From a virus: DNA of 64,000 nucleotides. Position 1 is the first letter of the stretch, and each line of letters opens with the position of its first letter. Positions 3,969 through 55,178 of this stretch are shown piece by piece. The position numbers and the translations under genes were made by a program. Under the pieces are notes generated by a model. The model was not told the origin of the DNA. It saw only the letters and a program-made list of their open reading frames with translations, and made no database searches. Location: positions 1 through 64,000 of IMG/VR virus record IMGVR_UViG_3300044684_000224; one strand, given 5' to 3'.

Positions 3969-6900
3969 GGTCACGATCTCGGTCCAGATGGTCGACGACA
4001 CCGCGGCGACCAGGGCAAAAGTTAAGGCCCAGTACGAGGAGTGGGCGGCTGGGTTCGGTCCGATCGGGATCACCGCGAAGTCGCCGATTGACGAGGCGTG
4101 GCAGGCGCAGGTCGCTGCGGACGTGAGGGCCACGGACCCGGGTGAGGTCACGGTCGGGGTCACGGCGGACACGGCGGCGGTTGCCGGCGAGGTTGCCGAG
4201 GCGCGGGCACGGGTCGAGGCCGAGGTGCAGCCGGTCGTGATCCCGGTCGAGGCGGGGCAGGTCCCGGATCTGGCGGCGCAGTCACCCGGGAACCAGATGG
4301 TCGGCGCCCCGTACGACGCCGCGAAGTCGGCGTACTACGCGGATCTGGCGCAGCAGCAGGAGGCGCAGGTCCGCGCCGCGGCGGAGGCGTATTGGCAGTC
4401 CGAGGGGCCGATCCAGGTTCCCATGCGTGCTGCGGACCCGATCAACGAGGCGTGGATAGCTCAGGTCAAGTCGTCGGTGCGGGGAATCGCGAACGACGCG
4501 CTGGAGATTCCGCTGAACCCTGGCCTGGCGGGGTTCGAGGCCCAACTGGAGGCGGCTCTCGCCCAGTTGTCGGCTACGACGAAGCTGGACATCCCCGCTG
4601 ATGTTGGGGATGCGATGGCGTTCCGCGACCAGGTGCAGATGATGGTCGAGCAGGTCGAGCGGTCGGTCAAGGCCGTGATCGACGTGCAGGTGAACAACAC
4701 CGAGGCCCTGACCGAGTTGCAGCAGAAGACCGCCGCCGCGTCACAAGCCACCCTCGCCGAGGTTGAGGCGCAGCAGAAGCTGAACCAGGCGTACGCGTCC
4801 GGGGATGCCGACAAGGTCGCGAAGGCAACCCAGGATCTGGAGTCCGCGGAGAAGGGCGCGAAGGACGCCACGGAGGCGTTGACCGCTGCTCAGGCTGCTG
4901 CTGCGGAGGGGTCTGCCGGTTTGGCCGCGGCGGAGGATGTGGCCGCGGGGGCGTCGCGTGGTTTGGGTGCGGCGATGGGTCCCGTGTGGATGGCGATCAA
5001 CGTCGCGCAGATGGCGATGTTCGCGTTCGGTAACACGTCGTCGTCCACGGCGCAGCAGACCCAAGACATGTCGCAGCAGTTGAACCAGCTCGGCCAGTCG
5101 GCCGGCACCGCAGCGCAGGGTTTGGTCGGCGGTAACCAGAACCTTCAGGGCATCGCCGGTGATCTGGAGACCCTGGGGACCAACGCGACGCAGTTTCAGG
5201 CAGCGTACTCGGGCAGCCTGGACACCGCGACCCAGTACACGAACCGGTTCGTGAACGAGCAGAAACAGCTTGCCTCCACGCCCGTCAATTTCGACGAAAA
5301 CTCGACAAAGCAGATGGTCGCCGCGCTGGGCGAGGGCGCTGCGTCTGCGTTCATGATTGCGACAAACATCAAGCAACTGACGGATGCCGCGAATGCCAAC
5401 AAGGCTGGTTTCGATGCGCTTCCGGAACCTTTGCGTAAAGCGGTCGCTGAGTACAGGGCGTTGGGGCAGGTGGTTCCGCAGGCCCAGGACGACCTGAACA
5501 GCATGACAGCGGCGGCGGACGCGAGTAAGAACACTCTGGCCGGCCTTGGCTACGTCATGACGGATGGCCAGACGGTCGTGAATAACTATGGCTTGACGGT
5601 TCAGTCGAACGCGAAGGCCCTTTCGGATGCGACGGCGGGCGCCGCCTATCTGGAGAACGCGGTCGACAAGGCCAGTATCGCGGCCGGTCAGGGCGCGCAG
5701 CAGTGGGCGCAGCTACAGGCGGCGGTGGCGTCAGCCGGGCAGCAGGTGGAGAACGCCAGCCATTCGATCGTCACGGCCGAGCAGGGTGTGGAATCGGCGC
5801 GGCACAGCGAGGAGCAGGCCGCGCTGGCGGTGACGGCGGCGCAGCACGGCTACGCGAACGCGTTGTATCAGGAGGGCCAGGCGCAGCAGGCCGTGACGAG
5901 CGCTCGGCAGGCCGCGCAGGCGGCGTTGGTGTCGCTTCAGTTGCAGGCCAACGACGCCGCCACGTCGGCCCTGTCGGCGAACGTGTCCCTGTTCGACGCG
6001 CAGCAGTCCGCCGCCGCCCTGGGCGTGAATCCGGGGAATGCGCAGCAGATCGCGGCCGAGCAGGTGACCGCGGCGAACGAGGCGCAGGTGAAGGCCGCGA
6101 TCGCGTTGATTCAGGCGCAGAACCAGGTCGCCGACAGCCAGAACGCCTCTACGGACGCCCAGAACAACCTGAACACGGCGCGCCAGCAGGGAGTCGACAA
6201 CAACCCCGCTGTCCTGTCGGCTGAGCACAGCCTGGCGCAGGCACAGGACGCCGTCACCACGTCGGCGCAGGGTGTGACCAACGCGCAGTGGGCGCAGCAG
6301 CAGGCCGCGATCGCTGTCGGGAACGCCCAGTGGGGTGTCGTGCAGGCCGAGCAGGGGCTGACCACCGCGGAGCAGAACCTCACGACGGCGCAGGACGCCG
6401 CATCTCGGTCGACGGACCAGAACACGTTGGCCGGCGCCCAGAACCGGCAGATGATCGAGCAGTTGTTCGAGGCATACCGGAACGAGTACGGGAACGAGCA
6501 GATCGCAGCGGCGATGACCCAGGAAGTGGGTCAGAAAATGCACTTCACCGCTGACCAAATCGGCGGTGTCATCGCTTCAGTCAACGGCCTGAACGGGCAG
6601 GTAGCGAACTTTTCGATCGTGGGTACGCCGTCTATGGACCCTACCCAGTTGGTGCATATCGCGCAGGTTTTGGGGATGGGCAACGACTTCTCTGCGATCG
6701 AGTCCGCGCTGCCCGACCAGTCCCGCCGTGTTCACAATGCCGGGGCGCGTGCAGGCGGTGGTCCGGGTGGCGGTCTGACGTGGGTCGGTGAGCAGGGCGC
6801 GGAACTCGTCGATCTACCGCCCGGTACCGAGGTGATCACCAACGCGAACAGCATGATGATGGTCGCCAATGGGGACGTGTTGCCCCCTGGGCACGCGTCG

Positions 6901-9140: not shown

Positions 9141-11393
9141 GTGCCCAGCAACCCGGTCGCCCCGCTGTGGCCCCCCACCCCGTTGGGTGGGGGTCGCCGC
9201 CGTGAGCACCGCTCGCTCGAACACCCGGCACCGCTGGCCGGTACGCCGATCCTGGAGCAGCAGTTCCCCGGCGACCAGTTGCGGCTGGCTTTGGAGATCG
9301 CGTGGGGTGCGCAGCCGGGAACCGACCCGGCGACGTGGCTGTGGACCGATGTTACTTCGGATGTGCAGGTCGCCGACGGCAAGAGGGTGTCGATCACGGT
9401 GGGTCGGGCGGATGAGGCGTCCGCGACCCAGCCGGCGTCGTGCACGGCCGTTTTGGACAACCGGCTGGCCAGGTACTCCAAGTCGCCGCTGTCGCCGAAC
9501 TATCCGCACGTGACGCGCAACGTGCCGGTGCGGGTCCGCGCCATCTACTTGGGTGGCTCGTACACTCGGTTTTTCGGCTACGCCACCGGGTTTCCACCAT
9601 CGTGGGATGTCACCGGGAACTACGCGGTCGTCACGTTGAAGGCCAACGGTGCGCTGCGCCGGCTGGGGCAGGGCACCGCGACGCTACGGTCCCCCCTCGA
9701 GCGGGCCGTGTCAGCATCGACCCCGGTGGCGTATTGGCCGATGGAGGACACCCAGAACTCGTCATCGCTGGCGTCCGCAGTTGCCGGTGTGGCACCCATG
9801 TCGGCCACTGGGCTGTCGCTGGCGTCGAACAGTGGTCTGCTCGGCAGTGACCCGCTGCCCATGTTCGGGAACGGCGGCACGAGCACGATCGTCGGCGAAG
9901 TGCCGGCGTGGACACCAACCCAGTACTGGGAAGTGCACTGGTACAACCAGTTGACTCAGCCGGCTGTGGACACCACGGTCATGTTCATCTCCACCACGGG
10001 AACCTACAAGACGTGGGAGGTCGCTGCGGCGGGCACCACTGACGGCCTGGGCCAGTCGTTGATCCTCAATGTCTATGATGCGCTTGGGAACAAAACCACC
10101 ATTTCCAGACCAGGCTTGGGAAACTTTTACACCAACTGGGCGTATGTCAAGTTGTTCGTTTCCGAATCGGGCGGCGTGGTGACGTGGACCTTCGAAGTGT
10201 TCCCAGCCAGCGGGGGCGGTGGTGGCTTCGTGAGCAACACGCTCGCGGCAACCGCAGGTGTTGTGACATCGATAAGTTCGCCGCCTGCTGCGGGATTGAA
10301 CGGCATGGCGCTCGGCCACGTCGCCGTATGGAATGAGCCGATCTCAACAATTAGCAATATTGACTCGGCCGGTGGCGGATACAACAACCAGGACCCTGTC
10401 ACTCGAATCACGCGGCTGTGCCGAGAGCAGGGCGAACAGATCACCGTCAACGGCAGCAGCAACTCAGCCATGGGCGTGCAGAGCGCCGACACCTACATGA
10501 ACTTGTTGCGAGCCTGTGAAAAAGTCGACCAAGGACTGCTCTATGACGGGCTCAACGCCGGCCTGACCTACACCTCCCGCGACCTGCGGGAGAACGCCAC
10601 CGCGATCCTCACCCTCAGCGCCGGCCAACAGGACCTCACACCGCCGTGGACCCCCGCCGACGACGATCAGTACACCGTCAACCAATACGTCGCCAGCCGC
10701 CAGGGCGGCTCGTCCTACACCGCGACCGACACCACCGATACGCTCGGTACCCTCAACGTCGGCACCTACTCGTCATCGGACACGTTCAACACGTTCTCCG
10801 ACGCCGACCTCCAGCAGTACGCCTGGTGGGAAGACCACCTAGGCACCGTCGACGGCTACCGCTACCCCCAGGTCGCGTTCTCGCTGCATCGACGGCCGCA
10901 GTATGTGCCCGCGTGGCTGCAAACGATGCTGCTCACCCCCATCGTCGTGGCTAACCCCGCGACCGCGCTCACCCAGATGCCACCTGAGGACATCAGCCTG
11001 GTCTTGCAGGGCTACACCGAAACGTTCGACAAGTTCACGTGGGACGTGGTCGCCAACACCACCCCCTTCGACCCGTGGCGCATCGCCGTCATCGCCCAAG
11101 AGACCGGCGACACCAGCCCGTACGCGTGGCGGCTGGAATCAGACGGCTCAACCCTCGTAACCGGCGTGGCGGCCGGGGCGACTTCGCTGACGGTCGCCAC
11201 ACCCTCCGGTCCCCTGTGGACCACCGTGGCCGACGACTTCCCCCTGGTCCTCTCCGTGGGCGGCATCGAAGTCACAGCCACCGCCATCGCCGGGGCCAGT
11301 TCACCGCAGACGTTCACGGTGAACCCAGTGCCCTACAAGCTGCCCACCAACGCAGCCGTGACGCTGTGGAAACAACCGGTCCTGGGACTGTGA
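9141..11393 (+). CDS. Large minor tail protein with LamG-like segment
   Basis: 750 residues from GTG 9141. The N-terminal block (about residues 70-140) has the pattern of actinophage minor tail proteins: WTDVTSDVQVADGKRVSI, then VGRADEASATQPASCTAVLD. Around residues 185-400 the sequence (STPVAYWPMEDTQNSSSLAS...) resembles a LamG/concanavalin fold that often binds sugars. It probably forms part of the baseplate or tip and contacts the host surface. Confidence 0.75.
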   Translation: MPSNPVAPLWPPTPLGGGRRREHRSLEHPAPLAGTPILEQQFPGDQLRLALEIAWGAQPGTDPATWLWTDVTSDVQVADGKRVSITVGRADEASATQPASCTAVLDNRLARYSKSPLSPNYPHVTRNVPVRVRAIYLGGSYTRFFGYATGFPPSWDVTGNYAVVTLKANGALRRLGQGTATLRSPLERAVSASTPVAYWPMEDTQNSSSLASAVAGVAPMSATGLSLASNSGLLGSDPLPMFGNGGTSTIVGEVPAWTPTQYWEVHWYNQLTQPAVDTTVMFISTTGTYKTWEVAAAGTTDGLGQSLILNVYDALGNKTTISRPGLGNFYTNWAYVKLFVSESGGVVTWTFEVFPASGGGGGFVSNTLAATAGVVTSISSPPAAGLNGMALGHVAVWNEPISTISNIDSAGGGYNNQDPVTRITRLCREQGEQITVNGSSNSAMGVQSADTYMNLLRACEKVDQGLLYDGLNAGLTYTSRDLRENATAILTLSAGQQDLTPPWTPADDDQYTVNQYVASRQGGSSYTATDTTDTLGTLNVGTYSSSDTFNTFSDADLQQYAWWEDHLGTVDGYRYPQVAFSLHRRPQYVPAWLQTMLLTPIVVANPATALTQMPPEDISLVLQGYTETFDKFTWDVVANTTPFDPWRIAVIAQETGDTSPYAWRLESDGSTLVTGVAAGATSLTVATPSGPLWTTVADDFPLVLSVGGIEVTATAIAGASSPQTFTVNPVPYKLPTNAAVTLWKQPVLGL

Positions 11394-14351: not shown

Positions 14352-15353
14352 ATGACCACTGCTACCCGCACGCCTGGCCGCTACGGCTGGGTGAAGGACG
14401 CGCCCGACTCCCGCGACCATCCCCGCATCGTGGCACCAGAGGAACTGGCCAGTGTCCCGGTCAGTGTGGACCTGTCCACCGACCCGAACATGCCACCTGT
14501 CTACGACCAGCAGCAGATCGGCTCGTGCACTGCGAACGCGATCGCGGCGGCGTTCGAGTACGACCTGCGCCGCCAGGGCCTCACCGATTTCATGCCGTCG
14601 CGGCTGTTCATCTACTACAACGAGCGCGCCATGGAAGGCACCGTCGACTCGGACTCGGGTGCGCAGATCCGGGACGGCATCAAGTCCATCGCCCAGCAGG
14701 GTCTCGTGCCCGAGAGCGAGTGGCCCTACGACGGCGCCCCGGCGAACAGCGACGGGTCGTGGCCTGCCGGGCACCTGGCGGCGAAACGGCCGCCGGCCGC
14801 GCTGTACGCAGAGGCTGCGGGTGACGAGGCGGTGCAGTACCTGGCGGTGACGCAGCAGGCCGACCAGATCAAGGCGGTGTTGGCGGCTGGGGATCCGGTG
14901 GTGTTCGGGTTCACCGTGTACGCCAGTTTCGAGTCCGACGCGGTGGCGCAGTCCGGTGACGCTCCGATGCCGGCGCCGGGCGAGCAGGAGGTGGGTGGGC
15001 ACTGTGTGGTGTGTGTCGGCTACGACGATGCCCGTGGTGTGTGGATTTGCCGCAACTCGTGGGGCACTGGCTGGGGTAAGGGCGGCTATTTCACGCTGCC
15101 CTACGCCTATCTCACCGACGGGAATTTGGCGTCGGATTTCTGGACGGTGAAGCAGGTGACTGTGGCGCAGCCGTCGCCGTCTCCTGTCCCGCCGCAGCCC
15201 GGTCCCGCTCCGCAGCCGCCGACGCCCAGTCATGACCCGGCAGATCTCGCACTAGTGGCCACACTCGGTCCGTGGAGTCGTGAGCACCACATCGGCAAGA
15301 ACGAGGTCGCCGCACGGGCGTTCATCGCATGGCGCGAAACGAAAGGGCTCTGA
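14352..15353 (+). CDS. Papain-like (C1A) cysteine peptidase
   Basis: 333 residues. The catalytic triad of the C1A family is visible: Cys59 in QQQIGSCTANAIAAAF with the oxyanion Gln before it, His217 in EVGGHCVVCVGYDD, and Asn235 in CRNSWGTGWGKGGYF. There is no long propeptide; the mature fold begins near residue 35. After about residue 265 comes a Pro-rich linker and a short helical tail. There is no signal peptide. It could be virion-bound and digest host surface protein, or process phage proteins; a role in lysis is a further possibility from its position. Such peptidases are uncommon in tailed phages. Confidence 0.85.
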   Translation: MTTATRTPGRYGWVKDAPDSRDHPRIVAPEELASVPVSVDLSTDPNMPPVYDQQQIGSCTANAIAAAFEYDLRRQGLTDFMPSRLFIYYNERAMEGTVDSDSGAQIRDGIKSIAQQGLVPESEWPYDGAPANSDGSWPAGHLAAKRPPAALYAEAAGDEAVQYLAVTQQADQIKAVLAAGDPVVFGFTVYASFESDAVAQSGDAPMPAPGEQEVGGHCVVCVGYDDARGVWICRNSWGTGWGKGGYFTLPYAYLTDGNLASDFWTVKQVTVAQPSPSPVPPQPGPAPQPPTPSHDPADLALVATLGPWSREHHIGKNEVAARAFIAWRETKGL

Positions 15354-15355
15354 CG

Positions 15356-15589
15356 ATGGTCGACAACCAGCACATGCAGATCAAGGGATACAGGGACCTC
15401 ACGCAGGACGAGATCGACCTGATCAACGAGGTGAAGCGCATGGAGCAGGGCGTGGCCGCGCTCCTGCGGCGCATCGGCGAATCCGGCGGCACGCCCCGTG
15501 AACTGGCGATCGCTCGGCATCACAGCGAGGACCTGTTCTCCCGTGCGGTCAAGGCGGTCGCCAAGCCGGCGAATCCGTACGAGGGCTGA
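15356..15589 (+). CDS. Acb2-like anti-CBASS cyclic-nucleotide sponge
   Basis: 77 residues from ATG 15356. The pattern IKGYRDLTQDEIDLINEVKRM...LAIARHHSEDLFSRAVKAVAKP matches the small all-helical Acb2 family. That family binds and sequesters cyclic di- and trinucleotide signals of CBASS (and some type III CRISPR) defences. Tyr12 and Lys27 fall where, as I recall, reference Acb2 has ligand-binding Tyr11 and Lys26. Length and helix spacing also fit. The assignment comes from remembered family features, not a search. It heads a run of tiny genes after the tail/peptidase block, a usual place for anti-defence genes. Confidence 0.7.
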   Translation: MVDNQHMQIKGYRDLTQDEIDLINEVKRMEQGVAALLRRIGESGGTPRELAIARHHSEDLFSRAVKAVAKPANPYEG

Positions 15590-15593
15590 CGCG

Positions 15594-15878
15594 ATGGACG
15601 AGCATGACGAGGGCCACGAGTTGGTGATGCCGTTCGTCACCGTGGCCACAGTGGGCGGTCCGCACGACGACGAGGCGTACACGGCCGGCTGGGAAATGGG
15701 CTCGCTCGACGCCGAGCTCCAGCATGCCGCGCCGGCCATAGTGGAGCGCACGATCCACGAGTGCAACGCGAAACAGGCCGACCTGATCGCGATGCGGCAT
15801 GGCTACCTCGTGAACCTCTACAACCTCGGCGACGGGTGGATGTCGCTGAAGCTCACGAAGCAGTCGGAGCGTGTGTGA
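15594..15878 (+). CDS. Small acidic protein, unknown function
   Basis: 94 residues from ATG 15594, rich in His, Asp and Glu at the N-terminus and with a compact C-terminal half (GYLVNLYNLGDGWMSL). Tightly packed between the Acb2-like gene and the next ATG (TGATG). No family recognised. Confidence 0.65.
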   Translation: MDEHDEGHELVMPFVTVATVGGPHDDEAYTAGWEMGSLDAELQHAAPAIVERTIHECNAKQADLIAMRHGYLVNLYNLGDGWMSLKLTKQSERV

Positions 15879-16177
15879 TGCAGTACGGATGGAAAGGCGC
15901 CCGCGCCTACCTCGTCGTCGGTGTGCGGCTTCTCGCGCTGGGCGTGCTGCGCCACTTCGGCGTCAAGGCGTACGACTTCGACGACAACACGGCCGTACGT
16001 GCCTACGTCCTGTCCTGCGCATTCGAACCGGTGGTGACCGAGCGTGCTGAGACAGTCCAAGTCGGCTGGCAATGTCCGCACGCCTCAATGACAACCGGCG
16101 GCCTCAGTGGCATCGAGGCGTTGAGTTCGACGTGTGGCTGCCGGATGACGCCGGTCTACGACATGGCGAGGCTGTGA
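15878..16177 (+). CDS. Small Cys-containing protein, unknown function
   Basis: 99 residues starting at the ATG in GTGATG. A mildly hydrophobic N-terminal helix (AYLVVGVRLLALGVL) is followed by Cys residues near the C-terminus (C..H, C.C) that could bind zinc. The stop overlaps the next ATG. Confidence 0.6.
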   Translation: MQYGWKGARAYLVVGVRLLALGVLRHFGVKAYDFDDNTAVRAYVLSCAFEPVVTERAETVQVGWQCPHASMTTGGLSGIEALSSTCGCRMTPVYDMARL

Positions 16178-16347
16178 TGTCCCGCTGGCGCACCCCGCGC
16201 GACTGGTACCGCACCCGTCTGGCGATGCAACGCTCCCAGGCCCAGGAGCCCTGGACATGTGGGGCGTGTGGCCGCTACCTGTACGGCTACATCCGGCACT
16301 GGCACTACACGCTGAGGTGGATCTCGGGATGGAAGGAGCCAGCGTGA
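16177..16347 (+). CDS. Tiny zinc-ribbon-like protein
   Basis: 56 residues, basic and Trp/Tyr-rich, with a single CGAC pair that could form half a zinc site. It overlaps the genes on both sides. No known family. Confidence 0.55.
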   Translation: MSRWRTPRDWYRTRLAMQRSQAQEPWTCGACGRYLYGYIRHWHYTLRWISGWKEPA

Positions 16348-16562
16348 TGAACCTCAACGGCACCAACGATTCGGCCGATCGGATCGCGGCGCTGGAACGG
16401 CAGATCGCTGCGATGCAGGCCGAACTGGCTCTGCTGAAGGGTGCACGGGCCGTGCCGACAGACGGCATGTGCGCGTCGTGTCGGCTGGCGTTGCAGCGCG
16501 GCGGGTCGGCGGTGTGCAACTGCACCACGTTCGCCCCGAAGATCATGTGCGCGGTGACGTGA
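16347..16562 (+). CDS. Short coiled coil plus Cys-cluster protein
   Basis: 71 residues. An N-terminal coiled coil (RIAALERQIAAMQAELALLK) is followed by four Cys (CASC...CNC) suggesting a metal site. Start taken as ATG 16347 behind GGAAGGAG; GTG 16344 is equally in frame. Confidence 0.6.
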   Translation: MNLNGTNDSADRIAALERQIAAMQAELALLKGARAVPTDGMCASCRLALQRGGSAVCNCTTFAPKIMCAVT

Positions 16563-16888
16563 TGGTACTGACGAGCGATCCACATGATCCGCGCCTGACG
16601 CATGGCGTCGACGCCGAGCCGGTACCGCAAGCGCCGGCATATCTGGTGCTGTCCGACGAGGAACGAGCCAAGGGATTCGTGCGGCCGGTTCGCCGGTCCT
16701 ATCAGCATCAGGCGTGCGGGACGATCACGACGATGGGCCGGTCCATCGCCGAGACCTACGCCGCGCAGCCGACGTTCTACGGCGCGACATACTGCTGCGG
16801 GTGCAGGAAGCATCTGCCGGTCGGGCCGGACGGCGAGTTCGTCTGGGTGGAGAACGGCGAGCCCACCGACCTGAAGGTCGGCGCCTGA
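16562..16888 (+). CDS. Small protein with Cys pair, unknown function
   Basis: 108 residues beginning at an ATG overlapped with the previous stop. A YCCGCRKHLP segment near residue 83 follows an earlier QHQACGT. It may be a zinc-binding fold; similar small proteins are common in actinophages. No defined function. Confidence 0.6.
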   Translation: MVLTSDPHDPRLTHGVDAEPVPQAPAYLVLSDEERAKGFVRPVRRSYQHQACGTITTMGRSIAETYAAQPTFYGATYCCGCRKHLPVGPDGEFVWVENGEPTDLKVGA

Positions 16889-17079
16889 TGGCCGCGATGA
16901 TGCGTTCCCGCCAGTACGGCAACCCGTGCCGGGTCGAGGGCCACGGCTCTCGGTGCGAGGTCTCGCACGAGCGTCCCCTTGTCCACCGGGCATGGGAGAA
17001 GCGCGCGTGGCGCACAGCGGAGTTGGGACGTGGCACTACGGGCCAAGCGCGGACAGCGAACCGTTGGAGCGTGGGCTGA
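16888..17079 (+). CDS. Tiny basic protein, unknown function
   Basis: 63 residues, strongly basic with two Cys near the N-terminus. It is linked by TGATG overlaps to both neighbours, which supports real translation, but no motif is recognisable. Confidence 0.5.
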   Translation: MAAMMRSRQYGNPCRVEGHGSRCEVSHERPLVHRAWEKRAWRTAELGRGTTGQARTANRWSVG

Positions 17080-17270
17080 TGTTCCGGCCCGGAGGACACA
17101 ACCCCCACACCGTCTACTGGGACGACGAGGGGTCCGATCCGAACCGGTTCGTCGCGGTGGCCATGACACCGACGGCGGCGGTGCGGATCGCTGATGCCCT
17201 GAACCGGGCGGGCGTCGAAGGGGACTGGATTGACGCGCTGCCGCCAATTCCGAAAAGGGGGACAGCATGA
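17079..17270 (+). CDS. Tiny protein, unknown function
   Basis: 63 residues from ATG 17079, ending with an ATGA overlap onto the endolysin gene. The middle (FVAVAMTPTAAVRIADALNR) reads like a small alpha/beta domain. Function unknown. Confidence 0.6.
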   Translation: MFRPGGHNPHTVYWDDEGSDPNRFVAVAMTPTAAVRIADALNRAGVEGDWIDALPPIPKRGTA

Positions 17271-18127
17271 GGACTCTCTACGATTCGACCAACTGGTCCG
17301 CCATCCCGACCACGGCGCAGATGGTCGCCGGCTACGTCCCTCCGTCCGGATTCGCCTGGCCCCAGTCCGCATGGAACCGGTTCCCGAACAGCATCCATGT
17401 CCGGATCACCCCGCAGGTGTCCACCACTGGTGTGGGTGTGCAGGTGCTGGACGTGGAGCAGGGCGACGCCACCCCGGCACAGGCGCCCGGCTGGGTGATC
17501 ACCCAACGTCGGCTGGGCCAGGCCCCGACGGTCTACTGCTCGGCCGCACTGTGGCCCACCGTGCAACGGGCGTTCACCGCGGCCGGTGTGCCGCACCCCT
17601 GCTACTGGATCGCCGCCTACCCCGGCGGCGGCCCGACGCTGCCCACCCTGAACGGCATCACCGCCGTGGCCCACCAGTACGCCGACCCGACCACTTCGGG
17701 CGGCGACTACGACCTGTCCGTCGTGGCCGACTTCTGGCCCGGCGTCGACCAAGGAGGAAACATGACGACCCCAGTCCAGATCGACCTCAACCAGCCGCTG
17801 CCGGACCCGGCGTCCGTGGCTGGCACCGGCACCGTCGGCGAGGCACTCACCGTGATGCTCGGCGGCATCGCCGGCAAACGCAACGCCGGCGCCGGCGCGG
17901 TCGAGGAAGCCCAGATTGACGCCGACCTGCACAACGTCCTCGCCGCCGTGGCTGGCGCCGACTCCGACGTCAAGGCCGGCATCGCCCAGGTGGCCTCTGC
18001 CATCGCCGCACTCCCGGCCGGACAGCCACCGACCGATGCCCAGATGCAGGCCCTCACCGCCGCGGTCACCAAGGCACTGCCCGGCTACACCGTCAACATC
18101 ACCCCAACCGCCGGGAGCACCTCATGA
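17267..18127 (+). CDS. Endolysin, GH25-like catalytic domain plus C-terminal domain
   Basis: 286 residues. The N-terminal part (1-160) has the layout of a glycoside-hydrolase TIM barrel related to GH25: YDSTNW at the start, a likely catalytic VLDVEQGDA near residue 64, and a final HQYADP...YDLSVVADFW strand. The remaining 120 residues are an Ala-rich helical domain that may bind the wall or oligomerise. It should cut peptidoglycan glycan strands at the end of infection. It lies directly before the holin. A strong in-frame ribosome site at 17751-17761 suggests a second product from ATG 17762. Confidence 0.7.
   Translation: MRTLYDSTNWSAIPTTAQMVAGYVPPSGFAWPQSAWNRFPNSIHVRITPQVSTTGVGVQVLDVEQGDATPAQAPGWVITQRRLGQAPTVYCSAALWPTVQRAFTAAGVPHPCYWIAAYPGGGPTLPTLNGITAVAHQYADPTTSGGDYDLSVVADFWPGVDQGGNMTTPVQIDLNQPLPDPASVAGTGTVGEALTVMLGGIAGKRNAGAGAVEEAQIDADLHNVLAAVAGADSDVKAGIAQVASAIAALPAGQPPTDAQMQALTAAVTKALPGYTVNITPTAGSTS
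17762..18127 (+). CDS. Possible internal-start product: free endolysin C-terminal domain
   Basis: AAGGAGGAAAC directly precedes an in-frame ATG inside the endolysin gene, at the exact border between catalytic and C-terminal parts. Translation from here would give a 121-residue free C-terminal domain (MTTPVQIDLNQPLPDP...). Some phage endolysins are known to use such internal starts to make extra wall-binding subunits that assemble with the full enzyme. Here it is inferred from sequence only. Confidence 0.5.
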   Translation: MTTPVQIDLNQPLPDPASVAGTGTVGEALTVMLGGIAGKRNAGAGAVEEAQIDADLHNVLAAVAGADSDVKAGIAQVASAIAALPAGQPPTDAQMQALTAAVTKALPGYTVNITPTAGSTS

Positions 18128-18315
18128 GCCGCTACGCCAAGGCCATCGCCGCACTGCTCGGCGGGCTCACCCGGGCCGTGGTGATCGGCATCCTCGCCCT
18201 GGTCCACGTGCACATCGACCCGACACTGGCGGCCGGGATCTGCACCGTGCTCGCCACCCTGGCCACGATCATCGCCCCGGCGAACAAGACGGCCGCCAAG
18301 CCACCGGCTGCCTGA
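18124..18315 (+). CDS. Holin
   Basis: 63 residues with two membrane segments (about 6-28 and 33-53) separated by a short turn, and a small Lys/Ala/Pro tail. This fits a class II holin that pores the membrane so the endolysin can reach the wall. The ATG overlaps the endolysin stop (ATGA), so the pair is co-translated. A hairpin follows the gene. Confidence 0.75.
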   Translation: MSRYAKAIAALLGGLTRAVVIGILALVHVHIDPTLAAGICTVLATLATIIAPANKTAAKPPAA

Positions 18316-18400: not shown

Positions 18401-19057
18401 ATGTCCAACATCCAACTGTTCAGCAACGACGAGTTCGAGTTGTCCGTCGAGTACATCGACGACACGTTCCGCGCGTACGGTCCACATCTGGCACGCCAAC
18501 TGGCGTTTCGGGACGCGTACGACCTCGTCCGCAACCTGGAGTCTGACGAAAAGACGCAGGTCGAGACGCACCGGACTGGTCCGGTGCCTGTTGACCAGCA
18601 GATATGGTGGCTGACCGAGCCGGGATTCTTCCGCGTGATCTCGCAGCGCCAAGTGGCTCGCATCAAGGACAGCGAGACCCGCGACAGAGTGCGCCGCTTC
18701 CAGCGGTGGGTGTTCCACGAGGTGCTGCCGTCGATCCGGCGTCACGGTGCCTACGTCATCACCGAGCCGGCATCGCTCACCTGGGAGCAGACCGCGCAGC
18801 GCTTGTACCAGATGTACGGCCTGCCGCTGTGTGCCGCGCAGATTACCGGCACGCTCAAGTCCGCCGGGGTACTGCGCCAGAACGGGAACCCGTGCGTGAA
18901 GTACCGAGACTGGTTCTGGATGACCGGCACCGGAACGGTGAACGTGCTCGACTTTGTGCTGCCGAAGATCGCGGCCAAGCTGACGGAGACGCGTTCGAAG
19001 ATGCTGGAACGCCAGCAGTGGTACCAGCTCCGGCTACAACTCGATCCGTCACCCTGA
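18401..19057 (+). CDS. BRO-N family antirepressor
   Basis: 218 residues. The first 125 match the BRO N-terminal DNA-binding fold: GPHLARQLAFRDAYDLVRNL, then WWLTEPGFFRVI and FQRWVFHEVLPSIRRHGAYV. The C-terminal part (about 125-210) resembles an antirepressor KilAC-like helical domain (WEQTAQRLYQMYGLPLCAAQ). Such proteins bind or titrate a phage repressor and push toward lytic growth. Clear ribosome site CAGGAGAAGGC. It forms its own transcript between the lysis terminator and the next hairpin. Confidence 0.85.
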   Translation: MSNIQLFSNDEFELSVEYIDDTFRAYGPHLARQLAFRDAYDLVRNLESDEKTQVETHRTGPVPVDQQIWWLTEPGFFRVISQRQVARIKDSETRDRVRRFQRWVFHEVLPSIRRHGAYVITEPASLTWEQTAQRLYQMYGLPLCAAQITGTLKSAGVLRQNGNPCVKYRDWFWMTGTGTVNVLDFVLPKIAAKLTETRSKMLERQQWYQLRLQLDPSP

Positions 19058-19795: not shown

Positions 19796-20548
19796 GTGAC
19801 AGTGCACCCTAACAGTGGCGAGGTTGCCCGCGCGGCGAACGATGGTCACGAATCCGTCTTCGACAAGATCAAGCATGTGGATGCTCGCGGAGAGTGGTGG
19901 TCCGCCCGCGAGTTGATGCCTCTGATGGGTTACAGCCGGTGGCAGGTGTTCGAGGTCCCGCTCAACCGGGCCATGAAGGCCGCCGAGAACACGGCCATGA
20001 ACGTGACCAGCCAGTTTACGCGATCCCGTAATGTGGCGCCCCGCTCTCAGGGTGGCGGCAATGCCCAGGATGATTACCAGTTGTCCCGGCAGGCCGCGTA
20101 TCTCGTGGCCATGAACGGCGATCCGAACAAGGTCGAGGTGGCCGCTGCGCAGGCGTACTTCGCGGCACGCACCCATGAGGCTGAACTTGCCCAGCAGGAG
20201 CATGACGCGCTGCCCGACTGGGCGGTCCAGCAGATCGCGACGATCCGGCGCGTCGGCCGCCTCGAAGTCGAGCAGAAGATGCAGGGCGAGCGGCTGACTG
20301 CGGTCGAGTCCCGCGTGGACGGTATCCAGGGCCGCTACGACTGGTACACCGCGCTGGGGTACGCCCGGCTGAAGGGGCTTCCGACGGCGCAGGGATACCT
20401 ACAGCGCCTCGGGAAGTTGGCCGCGAACATCTGCCGCCGCGACGGCATTGAGCCGGAGACGGCTCAGGATCGGCGGTACGGCGGTGTCGGGTCGTATCCG
20501 GTCGCCGCACTGGACGAGGCTGCGACCCACCTGTCGCACGCGGCGTAG
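19796..20548 (+). CDS. DinD/P22-type antirepressor-like protein
   Basis: 250 residues from GTG 19796. The first 130 match the BRO-N/DinD-type pattern: FDKIKHVDARGEWWSARELM, MGYSRWQVFEVPLNRA, then DDYQLSRQAAYLVAMNGDP and AQAYFAARTHEAEL. The C-terminal half is helical with a likely coiled coil. Proteins of this type act as antirepressors or damage-response factors that inactivate phage repressors. It is the second antirepressor-like gene within 2 kb, which suggests layered control of induction. Confidence 0.75.
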   Translation: MTVHPNSGEVARAANDGHESVFDKIKHVDARGEWWSARELMPLMGYSRWQVFEVPLNRAMKAAENTAMNVTSQFTRSRNVAPRSQGGGNAQDDYQLSRQAAYLVAMNGDPNKVEVAAAQAYFAARTHEAELAQQEHDALPDWAVQQIATIRRVGRLEVEQKMQGERLTAVESRVDGIQGRYDWYTALGYARLKGLPTAQGYLQRLGKLAANICRRDGIEPETAQDRRYGGVGSYPVAALDEAATHLSHAA

Positions 20549-20817: not shown

Positions 20818-21036
20818 TCACAGGATGTCGCCCGGCGCGTCGCGCCACTCGTCGATCTCCCGGAAGTAACCCTCCAGGGTGGCCGAGGTGGGGGAGTGAC
20901 CGGTGATACTGGAGATGGTCTTGCGGTCATGCCGGGCCCGCCGCGCCTCGGTGGCCAGGCCGGCGCGCAGGCTGTGACCCGTGAGCCGGATCGGCACGCC
21001 CGCCAACTGCGCTTGCCGACAGGAGAGGTCACCGTC
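20818..21036 (-). pseudogene. C-terminal remnant of a tyrosine recombinase
   Basis: On the minus strand about 70 codons encode the last part of a tyrosine integrase: LTGHSLRAGLATEARRARHD (HxxR box), SSITGHS, and the nucleophile region TLEGYFREIDEWRDAPGD. The N-terminal arm and catalytic Arg-I part are missing. The fragment is open only back to the stop of the neighbour gene (21037-21039) and lacks a good start. It is unrelated in position and strand to the intact integrase at 27655, so it looks like a relic of another integrated element. Confidence 0.75.
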
Positions 21037-22688: not shown

Positions 22689-22750
22689 ACATAGCAATAC
22701 CCTAACCGGGGGACATCAGGGCGACTGTGACCGGGTCGTACGCTTGCTAC

Positions 22751-23596
22751 ATGGCTGGAAACAGGGGCACCGCACACGAACTCGGCGCTGCCCTGCGTGC
22801 ACTCAGGAGTCGCGCCGGGCTGACCACGCGCGCACTCGGCGACAAGATCGACGCTAGTGCTACGAACGTCTCCCACTGGGAACGCGGCGAGCGGCTCATT
22901 GCCGAACGACGGCTCGTGCGCTTCCTCGACGCCGTAGATGCCACCCCTGACGAGAGGGAAGAGTTGCTCGGCCTCCGTCGCCACGCGGACGGCCCCGGCC
23001 AACTCGTAGCCGGCACGCCGAGCATCGGCGCCCAGTTGGCCCAACTGATCGAATACGAGCAGGTCGCGCGCAGGATCACCGCCGTCGCGCCGCTACTCGT
23101 TCCAGGTCTCCTTCAAACGGGCGACTACGCTCGCGCGACCCTGAAGCATCACCGTGACATCGACACGCGTGTGGCGCTACGCCTCGGGCGCCGCGACATC
23201 TTGACGCGCACCAGGGAGCCTGCCGAGTTGGTCGCACTGATCGACTCCGAGGTGCTGGTGCGGCCAGTCGTGCGCGGACAGCCGTCCGTCATGGCTGAGC
23301 AACTACGCCATCTGCTCACGATGAGCGCCCGGAACAACATCACGATTCAGATCGTGCAGAGCGCGACGGTTGGTTGGACACCAATCCTGGCCGGACCGTT
23401 CATCCTGCTCGAATTCGCCACCGCGACACCAGTCGTGCACTTGGAGCACCACAGTGCAAGTGCGTTCCTATGGGAGGAGGAGGACGTCCAGCGCTTCACG
23501 GCTGCGGCCGAGGAGATCCGTAACGCGGCGATGACCCTGGAGGATTCATCCAGGGTCATCGCCGAGATCGTCAATGGGATGGAGACGACAACATGA
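22751..23596 (+). CDS. XRE-family regulator with DUF5753 (Scr1-like)
   Basis: 281 residues from ATG 22751. An N-terminal helix-turn-helix (residues about 8-60: LGAALRALRSRAGLTTRALG...TNVSHWERGERLI) is followed by the DUF5753 domain (about 90-270: ARRITAVAPLLVPGLLQTGDYAR...LIDSEVLVRPV). This is the actinobacterial WhiJ/AbaA-type regulator architecture, always seen beside small DUF397 proteins as here. The upstream palindromes suggest self-control. In a phage it may manage lysogeny or host development. Confidence 0.85.
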   Translation: MAGNRGTAHELGAALRALRSRAGLTTRALGDKIDASATNVSHWERGERLIAERRLVRFLDAVDATPDEREELLGLRRHADGPGQLVAGTPSIGAQLAQLIEYEQVARRITAVAPLLVPGLLQTGDYARATLKHHRDIDTRVALRLGRRDILTRTREPAELVALIDSEVLVRPVVRGQPSVMAEQLRHLLTMSARNNITIQIVQSATVGWTPILAGPFILLEFATATPVVHLEHHSASAFLWEEEDVQRFTAAAEEIRNAAMTLEDSSRVIAEIVNGMETTT

Positions 23597-23778
23597 CGGT
23601 ACCAACCAGAGCGTCGAGGTGGCGGAAATCGAGCCGCAGCGACGGACATGACACCTGCGTCGAGGTCCATCACGACCTGACCGCAGTCCGCGACAGCAAG
23701 AACACGGCCGGTCCGACCCTGCGCGGTGACGTGACCGCGCTCGTCGCGGCCATCAGGGCCGGCAAGATCGGCCGATAG
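23593..23778 (+). CDS. DUF397 protein
   Basis: 61 residues with the DUF397 signature WRKSSRSDGHDTCVEV and AVRDSKNTAGPTL. Partner of the DUF5753 regulator, with which it overlaps by ATGA. Such pairs may act as regulator and antagonist in Streptomyces and relatives. A bidirectional terminator follows. Confidence 0.85.
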   Translation: MTVPTRASRWRKSSRSDGHDTCVEVHHDLTAVRDSKNTAGPTLRGDVTALVAAIRAGKIGR

Positions 23779-27654: not shown

Positions 27655-28587
27655 ATGGTGAAAATCGTGTCCGACGAACTCTCTGACCTTCTGCGCAGCT
27701 TCCAGATCCACGTCCGTGCCGAGGGCCGCGCGCCGCGCACGGTGACCATCTACAGCCAGGCGGTCCAGTTCTTCGCCGCGTGGCTGACCGACCAGGGGCG
27801 CCCCGCCACGACAGACGAACTGACCAAGGACAACATCCGGCGGTGGCTGGCCGAGTTGGGCGACACCAAGAAGCCCGGCACCGTACTCACCCGCCACATC
27901 GGCCTGCACAGGTTCGGCCGGTGGCTGGTGGCCGAGGAGATCCTGACCAAGCATCCGATGGACGGCCTGGAGCAGCCGCAGGTGCCCGCGTCGCCGGTGC
28001 CGGTGCTGTCGGATGAGCAACTCGCCGCGTTGCTCAAGGCGTGTGCTGGGGCACGGTTCTACGACCGGCGCGACGAGGCGGTGATCCGGCTGCTGCTGGA
28101 CTCCGGGCTGCGGGTGTCGGAGCTGTGCGGGCTGCCCCGGTGGAAGCCGGGCGAGGGGGGTGCCGCGGTGGGGATCGACGTGGCCGACCAGATGGGCATC
28201 GTGCTGGGTAAGGGCAGTAAGGCGCGGGCGTTCTACTTCGGTGCCCGCACGGCGCGGGCGCTGGATCGGTACCTGCGGGCGCGGGCCAAGCACCGGCACG
28301 CCGACAGTCACGCGCTGTTTCTGGGTGAGCGGGGTGCGCTGACCCCGGACGGTGTGCGGGAGATTCTGCGGGTGCGGGCAGAAACGGCCGGCATCGGGCA
28401 TGTGCACCCGCATCAGCTCCGGCACACTCACGCCCATGACTTCCTGCTGCACGGAGGCCAGGAGCGCGACTTGAAGCGGCTGATGGGCTGGTCGTCGGAC
28501 ACGATGCTGGAGATCTACGGGGCGTCGGCCGCCGACGTGCGGGCGGCGTCGGCGGCGCGCCGGATGCGACGTGGCGATCGGGTGTGA
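27655..28587 (+). CDS. int: Tyrosine integrase
   Basis: 310 residues. The core-binding domain spans about 8-100 and the catalytic domain about 115-300. The catalytic set is visible: Arg153 (DSGLRVSELCGL), a Lys in the beta-hairpin region (LGKGSKARAF), His253/Arg256 (HQLRHTHAHDF), Trp279 (MGWSS) and nucleophile Tyr288 (MLEIYGAS). It resembles XerC/D-like phage integrases and should insert the phage at a host attachment site. ATG 27655 was chosen; GTG 27667 is possible. Confidence 0.9.
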   Translation: MVKIVSDELSDLLRSFQIHVRAEGRAPRTVTIYSQAVQFFAAWLTDQGRPATTDELTKDNIRRWLAELGDTKKPGTVLTRHIGLHRFGRWLVAEEILTKHPMDGLEQPQVPASPVPVLSDEQLAALLKACAGARFYDRRDEAVIRLLLDSGLRVSELCGLPRWKPGEGGAAVGIDVADQMGIVLGKGSKARAFYFGARTARALDRYLRARAKHRHADSHALFLGERGALTPDGVREILRVRAETAGIGHVHPHQLRHTHAHDFLLHGGQERDLKRLMGWSSDTMLEIYGASAADVRAASAARRMRRGDRV

Positions 28588-52786: not shown

Positions 52787-53853
52787 AGTGGGCGGTCGAA
52801 CAAGCGCCGATCCTCACCAGCGACGCCGGCCGGCGTAACTCGTCCGCAGCGCACGTGTTGCAGATCCTCGCCTACCACGCGGACACCGACGGTGTCGCGT
52901 GGCCATCTCCAGAGCGCTTGGAGCAGGAGACCGGCCTGGGTACGTCCGCAGTGCGCGACGCGTTGACCGCGCTGGAGGACGGTGGCCTCGTCGAGCGCGA
53001 GGTGGTGGACGGGGTGACGCGGTGGCGGTTGCAGATGGACCGTCAGCGCGATGTGCCGATCCAGCAGGAGATCCGGGAGAAGATTGAACGGCGCCAGGAG
53101 CAGGCTCGGCTGCGTCAGGCGAAGCGACGCGGGCTGCGGTCCGCCGCGTCGTCTGTCACGCCGGAATCCAACGTGACTGTCACGCTGAACGGCGGCGTGA
53201 CAGACGACGATGTCACGCTGAACGGCAACGTGATGTCACGCTGGAATCCGGAGAATGTCACGCTGGAAACCAACGTGACCCATATAAGGAATGAACAGTC
53301 AGTTGAACAACCACTAGAACCTCCAGCGCCGCGGACGCGGCGCAGACGAACGCCGGACCCTGCGGAGACGATCAACGGCTTCGCCGACTTCTGGGCCGCC
53401 TACCCCAAGCGCGGCGGCCGGAACATGGCCAAGGACGACGCCCGGAAGGCGTGGGGCTCCACGCTCAAGGCGATCAGGAAGCCTGACGACGACGGGAAAA
53501 CCTGGACGGTCGAGCAGATCGTCGCTGGTGCTCGCCGGTACGCCGTGGAGTGCGAGAGCCTACGCGACCGGCAGTTCGTGAGCATGCCCGCATCCTGGCT
53601 TCGTGCCGGCCGGTGGAAGTACGACGACAACGACCTGAGCCCGGTGGGCCGCGACCCGCGTGAGTTCCTGCGCGACTGCTGGCGCAAGTCCAGCGTGCGG
53701 GAGATTCACCGGTTCTTCACCAGCGGATACGTCCAACCGCCTGCCGGTGACGGCGACTACGTGACGACCGTGCTGGAGCCCTACAACCGCCGCTGGATCG
53801 AAGAACACGAGACCGAAATCCTCGCCCGACTAGCCGCTTCGGAGGCATCGTGA
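52768..53853 (+). CDS. Replication initiator / helicase loader with winged helix
   Basis: 361 residues from ATG 52768. N-terminal winged helix (about 25-90: SAAHVLQILAYHADTDGVAW...TSAVRDALTALEDGGLVERE), a low-complexity Asn/Thr/Val-rich linker (135-185), and a C-terminal DnaD-like domain (INGFADFWAAYPKRGGRNMAKDDARKAW...). This is the usual phage initiator/loader sitting before DnaB. The nearby DnaA boxes fit an origin recognised here. Confidence 0.8.
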   Translation: MSWPAMKWAVEQAPILTSDAGRRNSSAAHVLQILAYHADTDGVAWPSPERLEQETGLGTSAVRDALTALEDGGLVEREVVDGVTRWRLQMDRQRDVPIQQEIREKIERRQEQARLRQAKRRGLRSAASSVTPESNVTVTLNGGVTDDDVTLNGNVMSRWNPENVTLETNVTHIRNEQSVEQPLEPPAPRTRRRRTPDPAETINGFADFWAAYPKRGGRNMAKDDARKAWGSTLKAIRKPDDDGKTWTVEQIVAGARRYAVECESLRDRQFVSMPASWLRAGRWKYDDNDLSPVGRDPREFLRDCWRKSSVREIHRFFTSGYVQPPAGDGDYVTTVLEPYNRRWIEEHETEILARLAASEAS

Positions 53854-55178
53854 CCGACGACCCGACCATTGCCCTGGCCCGCGAGGACGAGGAGCGCTAC
53901 CTGCTGGGCCTGCTGCTGCCCGTCACGCTGCACACGCTGCGCGAGCGGGCACTGGACCAGGTCTCGCCCGAGCACTTCGGCTCCGGCCACTACGGCGGCA
54001 TCTGGGCGGCCGCCCAGCGGCTGCGGGCCAACGACCGGCCGATCAACCGCCGCAACCTGGTTGCCGAGTGCGGCACCGAGGCGGGCGGGTCGCGGGTGCC
54101 GCAACTGCTGGACCAGTTGGTCGGCTACATCCCGCCGCAGCACGAGTTCGCCCGGGTCGTGCGGGACGTGGTCACCGCGGGGAAGTTGCGCATGCTCGTC
54201 GGGGCGTGCGTGCGGGCGATGCAGCGGGCGATGACGGCGGAGGATTTCGGGCAGGCGTACAGCGTGGCGCTGGAGGAGTTGGAGCGGTTGGCCGAGCAGG
54301 ACGAGGGCGACGACCTGGTGCCGATCGGGCGCATCGTCGCCGAGTTGGGTGAGCGGTTCAAGGCAGGGCCGGGGAACCGGGCGATCCCGTCGCCGTGGCC
54401 GGACTTCAACGAGCGCGGCGCCGGCGGCTTCCACCGCGGCCGGCTCTACGTCATCGGCGCCAGGCCGGGGGACGGGAAGTCCATCGCGGCGCACCAGGCG
54501 GCGGCGCACGCGGCCGAGTGTGGCCAGCATGCCGTGATCTTCTCGATGGAGATGGGTCGCCACGAGGTGGGCGACCGGCTGCTGGCCAACGGCAGCCGGG
54601 AGCTGGACGAGCGCGGCAAGCTCGGCCCAGGGATCGACCTGGGCGAGATCACGGCGATGCGGCTGTCGGCGGACTCGTGGCGCCGCTACGGCGAGTTCGC
54701 CGACAGGACGCAGGGCTGGCCGCTGTGGGTGGTGGACCGCGGCGGGCAGACGGTCGAGTCCATCAAGTCGACCTGCCGGATGATGAAACGTCGCCGCGGG
54801 CTGGACATGGTGTGCGTGGACTACCTCCAACTGCTGTCGATCGAGAGCATCAAGTCCCGCGAGCAGCAGGTGTCGGAGATAGCCCGCCAGTTCAAGAACT
54901 TGTCGCGGGAACTGGAGTGCGCGGTGCTGTTGCCCAGTCAGCTCAACCGCAACAGTGTGCACCGCGGTAAGCCGTCGCTGGCCGACCTGCGCGAGTCTGG
55001 CGGTATCGAGGCGCACGCCGATGTGGTGGTGCTGTTGTCCCGTGGCGTGTTTCCCGACGACCACGGGCAGGCGGGCCTGTATGACGGCACGATCGACCTG
55101 GATGTGGCGAAGAACCGGTTCGGGCCTGTCGGCTCGATCAACCTGCCGTGGCGAGGTTGCTATGCGTCCATCGGATGA
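53850..55178 (+). CDS. dnaB: Replicative DNA helicase, DnaB type
   Basis: 442 residues. DnaB N-terminal domain (about 10-130), then the RecA-like motor: Walker A IGARPGDGKSIA (about 202-213), VIFSMEMGRHEVGDRL, Walker B VCVDYLQLL, sensor LPSQLNR and LRESGGIEAHADVVVLL, and an end KNRFGPVGSI. It unwinds DNA at the phage fork. Its GTG/ATG overlap with the loader shows coupling. Confidence 0.95.
   Translation: MTDDPTIALAREDEERYLLGLLLPVTLHTLRERALDQVSPEHFGSGHYGGIWAAAQRLRANDRPINRRNLVAECGTEAGGSRVPQLLDQLVGYIPPQHEFARVVRDVVTAGKLRMLVGACVRAMQRAMTAEDFGQAYSVALEELERLAEQDEGDDLVPIGRIVAELGERFKAGPGNRAIPSPWPDFNERGAGGFHRGRLYVIGARPGDGKSIAAHQAAAHAAECGQHAVIFSMEMGRHEVGDRLLANGSRELDERGKLGPGIDLGEITAMRLSADSWRRYGEFADRTQGWPLWVVDRGGQTVESIKSTCRMMKRRRGLDMVCVDYLQLLSIESIKSREQQVSEIARQFKNLSRELECAVLLPSQLNRNSVHRGKPSLADLRESGGIEAHADVVVLLSRGVFPDDHGQAGLYDGTIDLDVAKNRFGPVGSINLPWRGCYASIG

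Follow-up and report, generated by a model that had tools for sequence, protein, structure and literature searches.

Acb2 is a phage protein known to take up the alarm molecules by which bacteria set off an antiviral suicide. Many small genes of actinophages are anonymous, and the one at 15356–15589 raises the question whether it encodes an Acb2 sponge of the signals used by CBASS, as a preliminary description had considered likely from the letters of the sequence, and whether the run of small genes that it heads, described there as ten tiny genes before the endolysin, might be an anti-defence cluster. The window, which is the whole stretch of DNA that was analysed, comprises bases 1–64000 of a virus record of 93,360 bases. 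The features at the locus are:

14352–15353, plus strand: papain-like (papain-family) cysteine peptidase in the tail-lysis interval, directly upstream of acb2 (PF00112, E 4.6e-16)
15356–15589, plus strand: acb2 homologue, 77 aa, helical hairpin and predicted cyclic-oligonucleotide sponge (PF24729, PDB, AF2, Foldseek)
15594–15878, plus strand: small gene, 94 aa (phrog_21481, E 4e-18)
15878–16177, 16177–16347, 16347–16562, 16562–16888, 16888–17079 and 17079–17270, plus strand: six small overlapping genes, no family above cutoff
17267–18127, plus strand: endolysin-like gene (phrog_291, E 3e-4)
18124–18315, plus strand: holin-like gene (phrog_3428, E 0.08)

The reading frame at 15356–15589 on the plus strand exists as it had been described, with an ATG start, a TGA stop and Tyr12 and Lys27 at the residue positions given for them, and it encodes a protein of 77 amino acids that begins MVDNQHMQIKGYRDLTQDEIDLINEVK. 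Its homologues start with M(V)DNQH, which is the same start as the MVDNQH chosen here, and the sequence AAAGGG about nine bases 5' of the ATG at 15356 is a plausible ribosome site. As both agree with the ATG at 15356, we rejected the alternative upstream start at 15329, which would give a protein of 86 aa. The gene begins two bases past the stop of the peptidase gene, and the ATG of the following gene (15594) stands four bases past its own stop. Scans for sigma-70 promoters and for terminators gave no signal above chance. Judged from its sequence, the frame is a real gene and its product a member of the Acb2/Vs.4 family.

A profile search had been proposed as a check of this assignment, and using the Pfam model PF24729 (‘Acb2_Tad1_hairpin’) we obtained a match of 47.7 bits over model positions 1–58 of 58, compared to a curated gathering cutoff of 27 bits; none of 14 control genomes contained a match to the model. 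In a phmmer search of the PDB the crystallised Acb2 p26 (8h2j, 8ixz) came first with an E-value of 2.8e-8. A profile compiled from five sequences, the protein and four homologues, found p26 with E 9e-24 and Vs.4 (7uq2) with E 4.2e-6 in the same database, and beyond these two no chain fell below E 1. A family HMM built without the 77-aa protein gave it 80.6 bits (E 1e-23), and no other of the 930 stop-to-stop frames in the window appeared among the matches listed for this HMM. When genome contigs were searched, the 77-aa sequence alone as query gave no matches, and with a profile the named matches were all from Pseudomonadota.

Structure prediction, also proposed in the preliminary description, led for the monomer to the same family. 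The AlphaFold2 model, built on an alignment of 52 rows, consists of two long antiparallel helices (H17–42 and H47–69, pLDDT 88.4) that form a hairpin, preceded by residues 1–16 as a coil of low confidence (pLDDT 56 for residues 1–10), in the region where family members have a short N-terminal helix. Searching the PDB with this model using Foldseek, we found that ranks 1–8 were all Acb2 or T4 Vs.4 with a probability of 1.00 and a TMq of 0.56–0.70, and that the matches beyond rank 8 were unrelated helical bundles with E >1, rank 9 having an E-value of 1.4. The Acb2/Vs.4 matches have modest E-values (4e-3), which is not surprising for a protein this small and helical.

Among the closest known relatives is Acb2 as described from Pseudomonas phages (p26; PaMx41 gp24 and relatives; PDB 8h2j, 8h2x, 8ixz), which has in common with our protein the N-terminal motif DNQHxxIxGYRDLTQxEID, the pocket Tyr, Lys and Arg, the two-helix hairpin and PF24729. 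The two differ in their source, an actinophage here and Pseudomonas phages there, in the loop between the helices, which is about 17 residues shorter in the 77-aa protein, and in Lys66 for Arg, Leu60 for Gly, Ser62 for Met and Tyr75 for the terminal Phe. T4 Vs.4 (7uq2) shows the same fold with Tyr8 and Lys23 as equivalents of Tyr12 and Lys27, and its helix cap Thr12 is aligned with Thr16, but its sequence similarity is much lower than that of the p26 type and, as in p26-type Acb2, Vs.4 His11 and Phe82 have no equivalent (Leu15 and Ala69 stand in their places).

For the residues we counted conservation across 56 distinct family members and took their roles from a review and from papers on Vs.4, on Panoptes and on mini-Cas10. 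G11, Y12, R13, L15 and K27 are invariant in the 56 homologues, and D14, R48, A69 and P71 are kept in about 95–98% of them. Three of these positions are:

15389–15391, plus strand: codon of Tyr12, corresponding to Vs.4 Tyr8 by profile alignment; Tyr in 56/56
15434–15436, plus strand: codon of Lys27, corresponding to Vs.4 Lys23 by profile alignment; Lys in 56/56
15497–15499, plus strand: codon of Arg48, aligned with p26 Arg67; conserved in 53/56

The p26 residue Arg67, with which Arg48 is paired in the alignment, presumably has a role in binding cyclic trinucleotides. In the crystal structure of Vs.4 both Y8 and K23 contact cGAMP (PMC10097602), and Tyr8 stacks on the ligand and forms hydrogen bonds with it; dinucleotide binding is disrupted in the Y8A variant (PMC10097602, PMC12657218). 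Profile, sequence, fold and pocket residues thus bear out the original reading of an Acb2 in an actinophage.

With high confidence we consider the protein a likely sponge of six subunits that takes up cyclic di- and trinucleotides and thereby weakens CBASS, where we infer the binding, the hexamer and the phage phenotype. Its sequence and the AF2 prediction give a hairpin of two helices whose N-terminal loop contains GYRDL, and this hairpin would assemble as a homohexamer that, in the manner of the family, would bind cyclic oligonucleotides tightly and leave them uncleaved. Cyclic dinucleotides would then be held in pockets between the protomers via Tyr12, Lys27, Lys66 and the C-terminal aromatic residue Tyr75, and cyclic trinucleotides probably at the trimer ends. 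Sequestering these signals would keep the CBASS effectors (phospholipases, nucleases and others) switched off while the actinophage completes its cycle. The protein is probably made late, as acb2 lies in the late region between tail and lysis, within a single series of genes that overlap or almost do.

At several positions the protein departs from its family. Lys66 is found in place of the Arg of 54 of the 56 members, a conservative change at the position aligned with R79 of Vs.4, which contacts cGAMP (PMC10097602). Leu60 occurs where 55 of the 56 have Gly or Ala and is aligned with A73 at the hexamer interface of Vs.4, and His55 replaces the Thr present in 50/56, which is aligned with Vs.4 T68, a residue whose exchange in T68M lowers the affinity (PMC12657230). 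Ser62 stands where 52/56 members have Met. The protein also forms the longest branch of the family tree (1.74), and its ligand range may therefore be shifted. The alignment marks it as a diverged family member whose unusual residues include one at the hexamer interface (L60) and two close to the pocket (H55, K66), and L60, H55, S62 and K66 together offer a natural means of testing which positions govern ligand range and hexamer assembly in this family.

These residues allow two further readings. It might be that the protein is a compact, diverged p26-type Acb2 tuned to actinobacterial signalling, in which L60, H55, S62 and K66 alter oligomer or pocket and make it prefer a cyclic nucleotide outside the usual 3',3'-cGAMP set, one that CBASS or a related system of actinobacteria employs; we consider this unlikely. 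A homologue with lost or shifted activity, in which the same four residues alter hexamer or pocket and leave a protein that is decayed or directed to another ligand, we consider quite unlikely. The length of its branch and its deviations at residues of importance in Vs.4 would fit such a loss, but the reading frame is intact, its start and its ribosome site are normal, the core residues Y12, K27 and R48 and the C-terminal aromatic residue are retained, and the homologue from Pseudomonas phage MKPT02 (L010), which the tree places near our protein with weak support, is also without the usual Gly60/Met62 pair.

Very unlikely is a sponge of the Tad1 type, whose main ligand would be gcADPR of Thoeris and not the CBASS nucleotides. 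Tad1 (anti-Thoeris 1) does share the sponge principle and the helical hairpin, which is spanned by the same Pfam model in both families, but it has an additional N-terminal beta-sheet domain (PMC12043709). Our protein has only 77 aa with no strand in the AF2 model, and the PDB matches are Acb2 and Vs.4 with no Tad1 among them; because this beta domain is absent we rejected a Tad1 identity. Short helical proteins readily give weak structural matches, but the idea that a small helical phage protein without relation to Acb2 had come to look like it through chance or convergence is effectively refuted by the PF24729 match, by the PDB profile matches, by similarity to many homologues over the whole length of the protein and by a shuffle control, in which the best of 2000 self-shuffles reached 11.2 bits against the family HMM compared to 80.6 bits for the protein itself.

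The sponge reading places the gene among a few that have been described from actinophages. Homologues of Acb2 have been reported for the Mycobacterium cluster E phages Xandras (gp101) and BigBubba (gp102) (PMC11953737) and for the Microbacterium phage Statler (gp57) along with other EG phages (PMC13348362), and since these are already published we regard acb2 in our virus as a known kind of gene and not as a new mechanism. We could confirm Xandras gp101 (L076:20262–20456) as a match to PF24729 with 59.1 bits. It belongs to the same Pfam family and also comes from an actinophage, but it is without the GYRDL loop, and as the hairpin is kept its pocket must differ from that of the p26 type. A BLASTP comparison of Xandras gp101 with the 77-aa protein gave no alignment, and a search of phage records with the 77-aa protein gave no actinophage with a significant match among the matches listed. 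The 77-aa protein thus differs from Xandras gp101 and stands closer to the p26-type Acb2 that is found in phages of proteobacteria. One small actinophage gene among many anonymous ones thereby receives a firm functional name, and a host group with only few annotations gains a classic Acb2 of the p26 type; the understanding of phage counter-defence is left unchanged.

For the neighbours of acb2 we found no sign of a comparable role. A run of small genes before the endolysin is indeed present, but it comprises seven genes and not ten (94, 99, 56, 71, 108, 63 and 63 aa), which mostly overlap in ATGA style. Scanning all seven with PADLOC, Pfam, NCBIfam and PHROGs revealed no convincing defence or counter-defence family, and in the first three collections no convincing match of any kind. 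In the fetched flanks acb2 was found beside none of the 48 relatives of gene 16562, none of the 32 of the peptidase and none of the three of gene 15594. With these family scans and the linkage check we dropped the proposed anti-defence cluster as unsupported; the idea has no comparative support in these data. In a GC-rich phage contig (L012) an acb2 with 57–60% identity is likewise situated between tail-type genes and a lysis module, and this module contains an Rv2525c-like glycoside hydrolase and a gene at the holin position that is 61% identical to the holin described here. The other small genes between acb2 and lysis differ in this contig; the position of acb2 between tail and lysis therefore looks conserved and filled with changing companions.

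Some of these neighbours deserve a comment of their own. The protein encoded at 16562–16888 is small and cysteine-containing and has 48 relatives in viral contigs with up to 75% identity, as well as distant relatives in Synechococcus phages and haloarchaeal tailed viruses. Compared to Pfam and PHROG it showed no convincing family, and its relatives are a candidate for a new one. Contig L061 carries both acb2 (6004–6312) and a relative of this gene (1322–1645, 47% identity) about 4.5 kb apart and is the sole reverse case. For the peptidase at 14352–15353 relatives occur in 9 of 50,697 phage records (Lak phages, Burkholderia FLC9, an Alicyclobacillus phage endolysin and an uncultured phage), and 32 viral contigs carry one. 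The relative of gene 15594–15878 in phage Argie, gp4, sits between terminase and portal, whereas the gene follows acb2 in our virus.

The virus itself is in all probability temperate and infects an actinobacterium, a bacterium of the soil type. This follows from the relatives of two genes, from a tyrosine integrase at 27655–28587 on the plus strand and from a DnaB helicase at 53850–55178. The relatives of the tail-region protein at 9141–11393 are confined to Streptomyces phages (32 records) and one Thermobifida phage, and among named records gene 15594–15878 has relatives only in Mycobacterium phages, which agrees with the actinophage source that had been suggested. Beside the integrase, a 62-aa reading frame at 20818–21006 on the minus strand resembles by eye the C-terminus of a tyrosine recombinase and may be left over from an integration module that was present earlier. 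Two genes on the plus strand shortly behind the lysis genes (18401–19057 and 19796–20548) encode antirepressor-like BRO N-terminal domains (PF02498). The gene at 22727–23778, also on the plus strand, encodes a regulator with HTH_31 and DUF5753, a type that is common in actinobacterial chromosomes, and it is followed by a 61-aa reading frame that by eye is DUF397-like.
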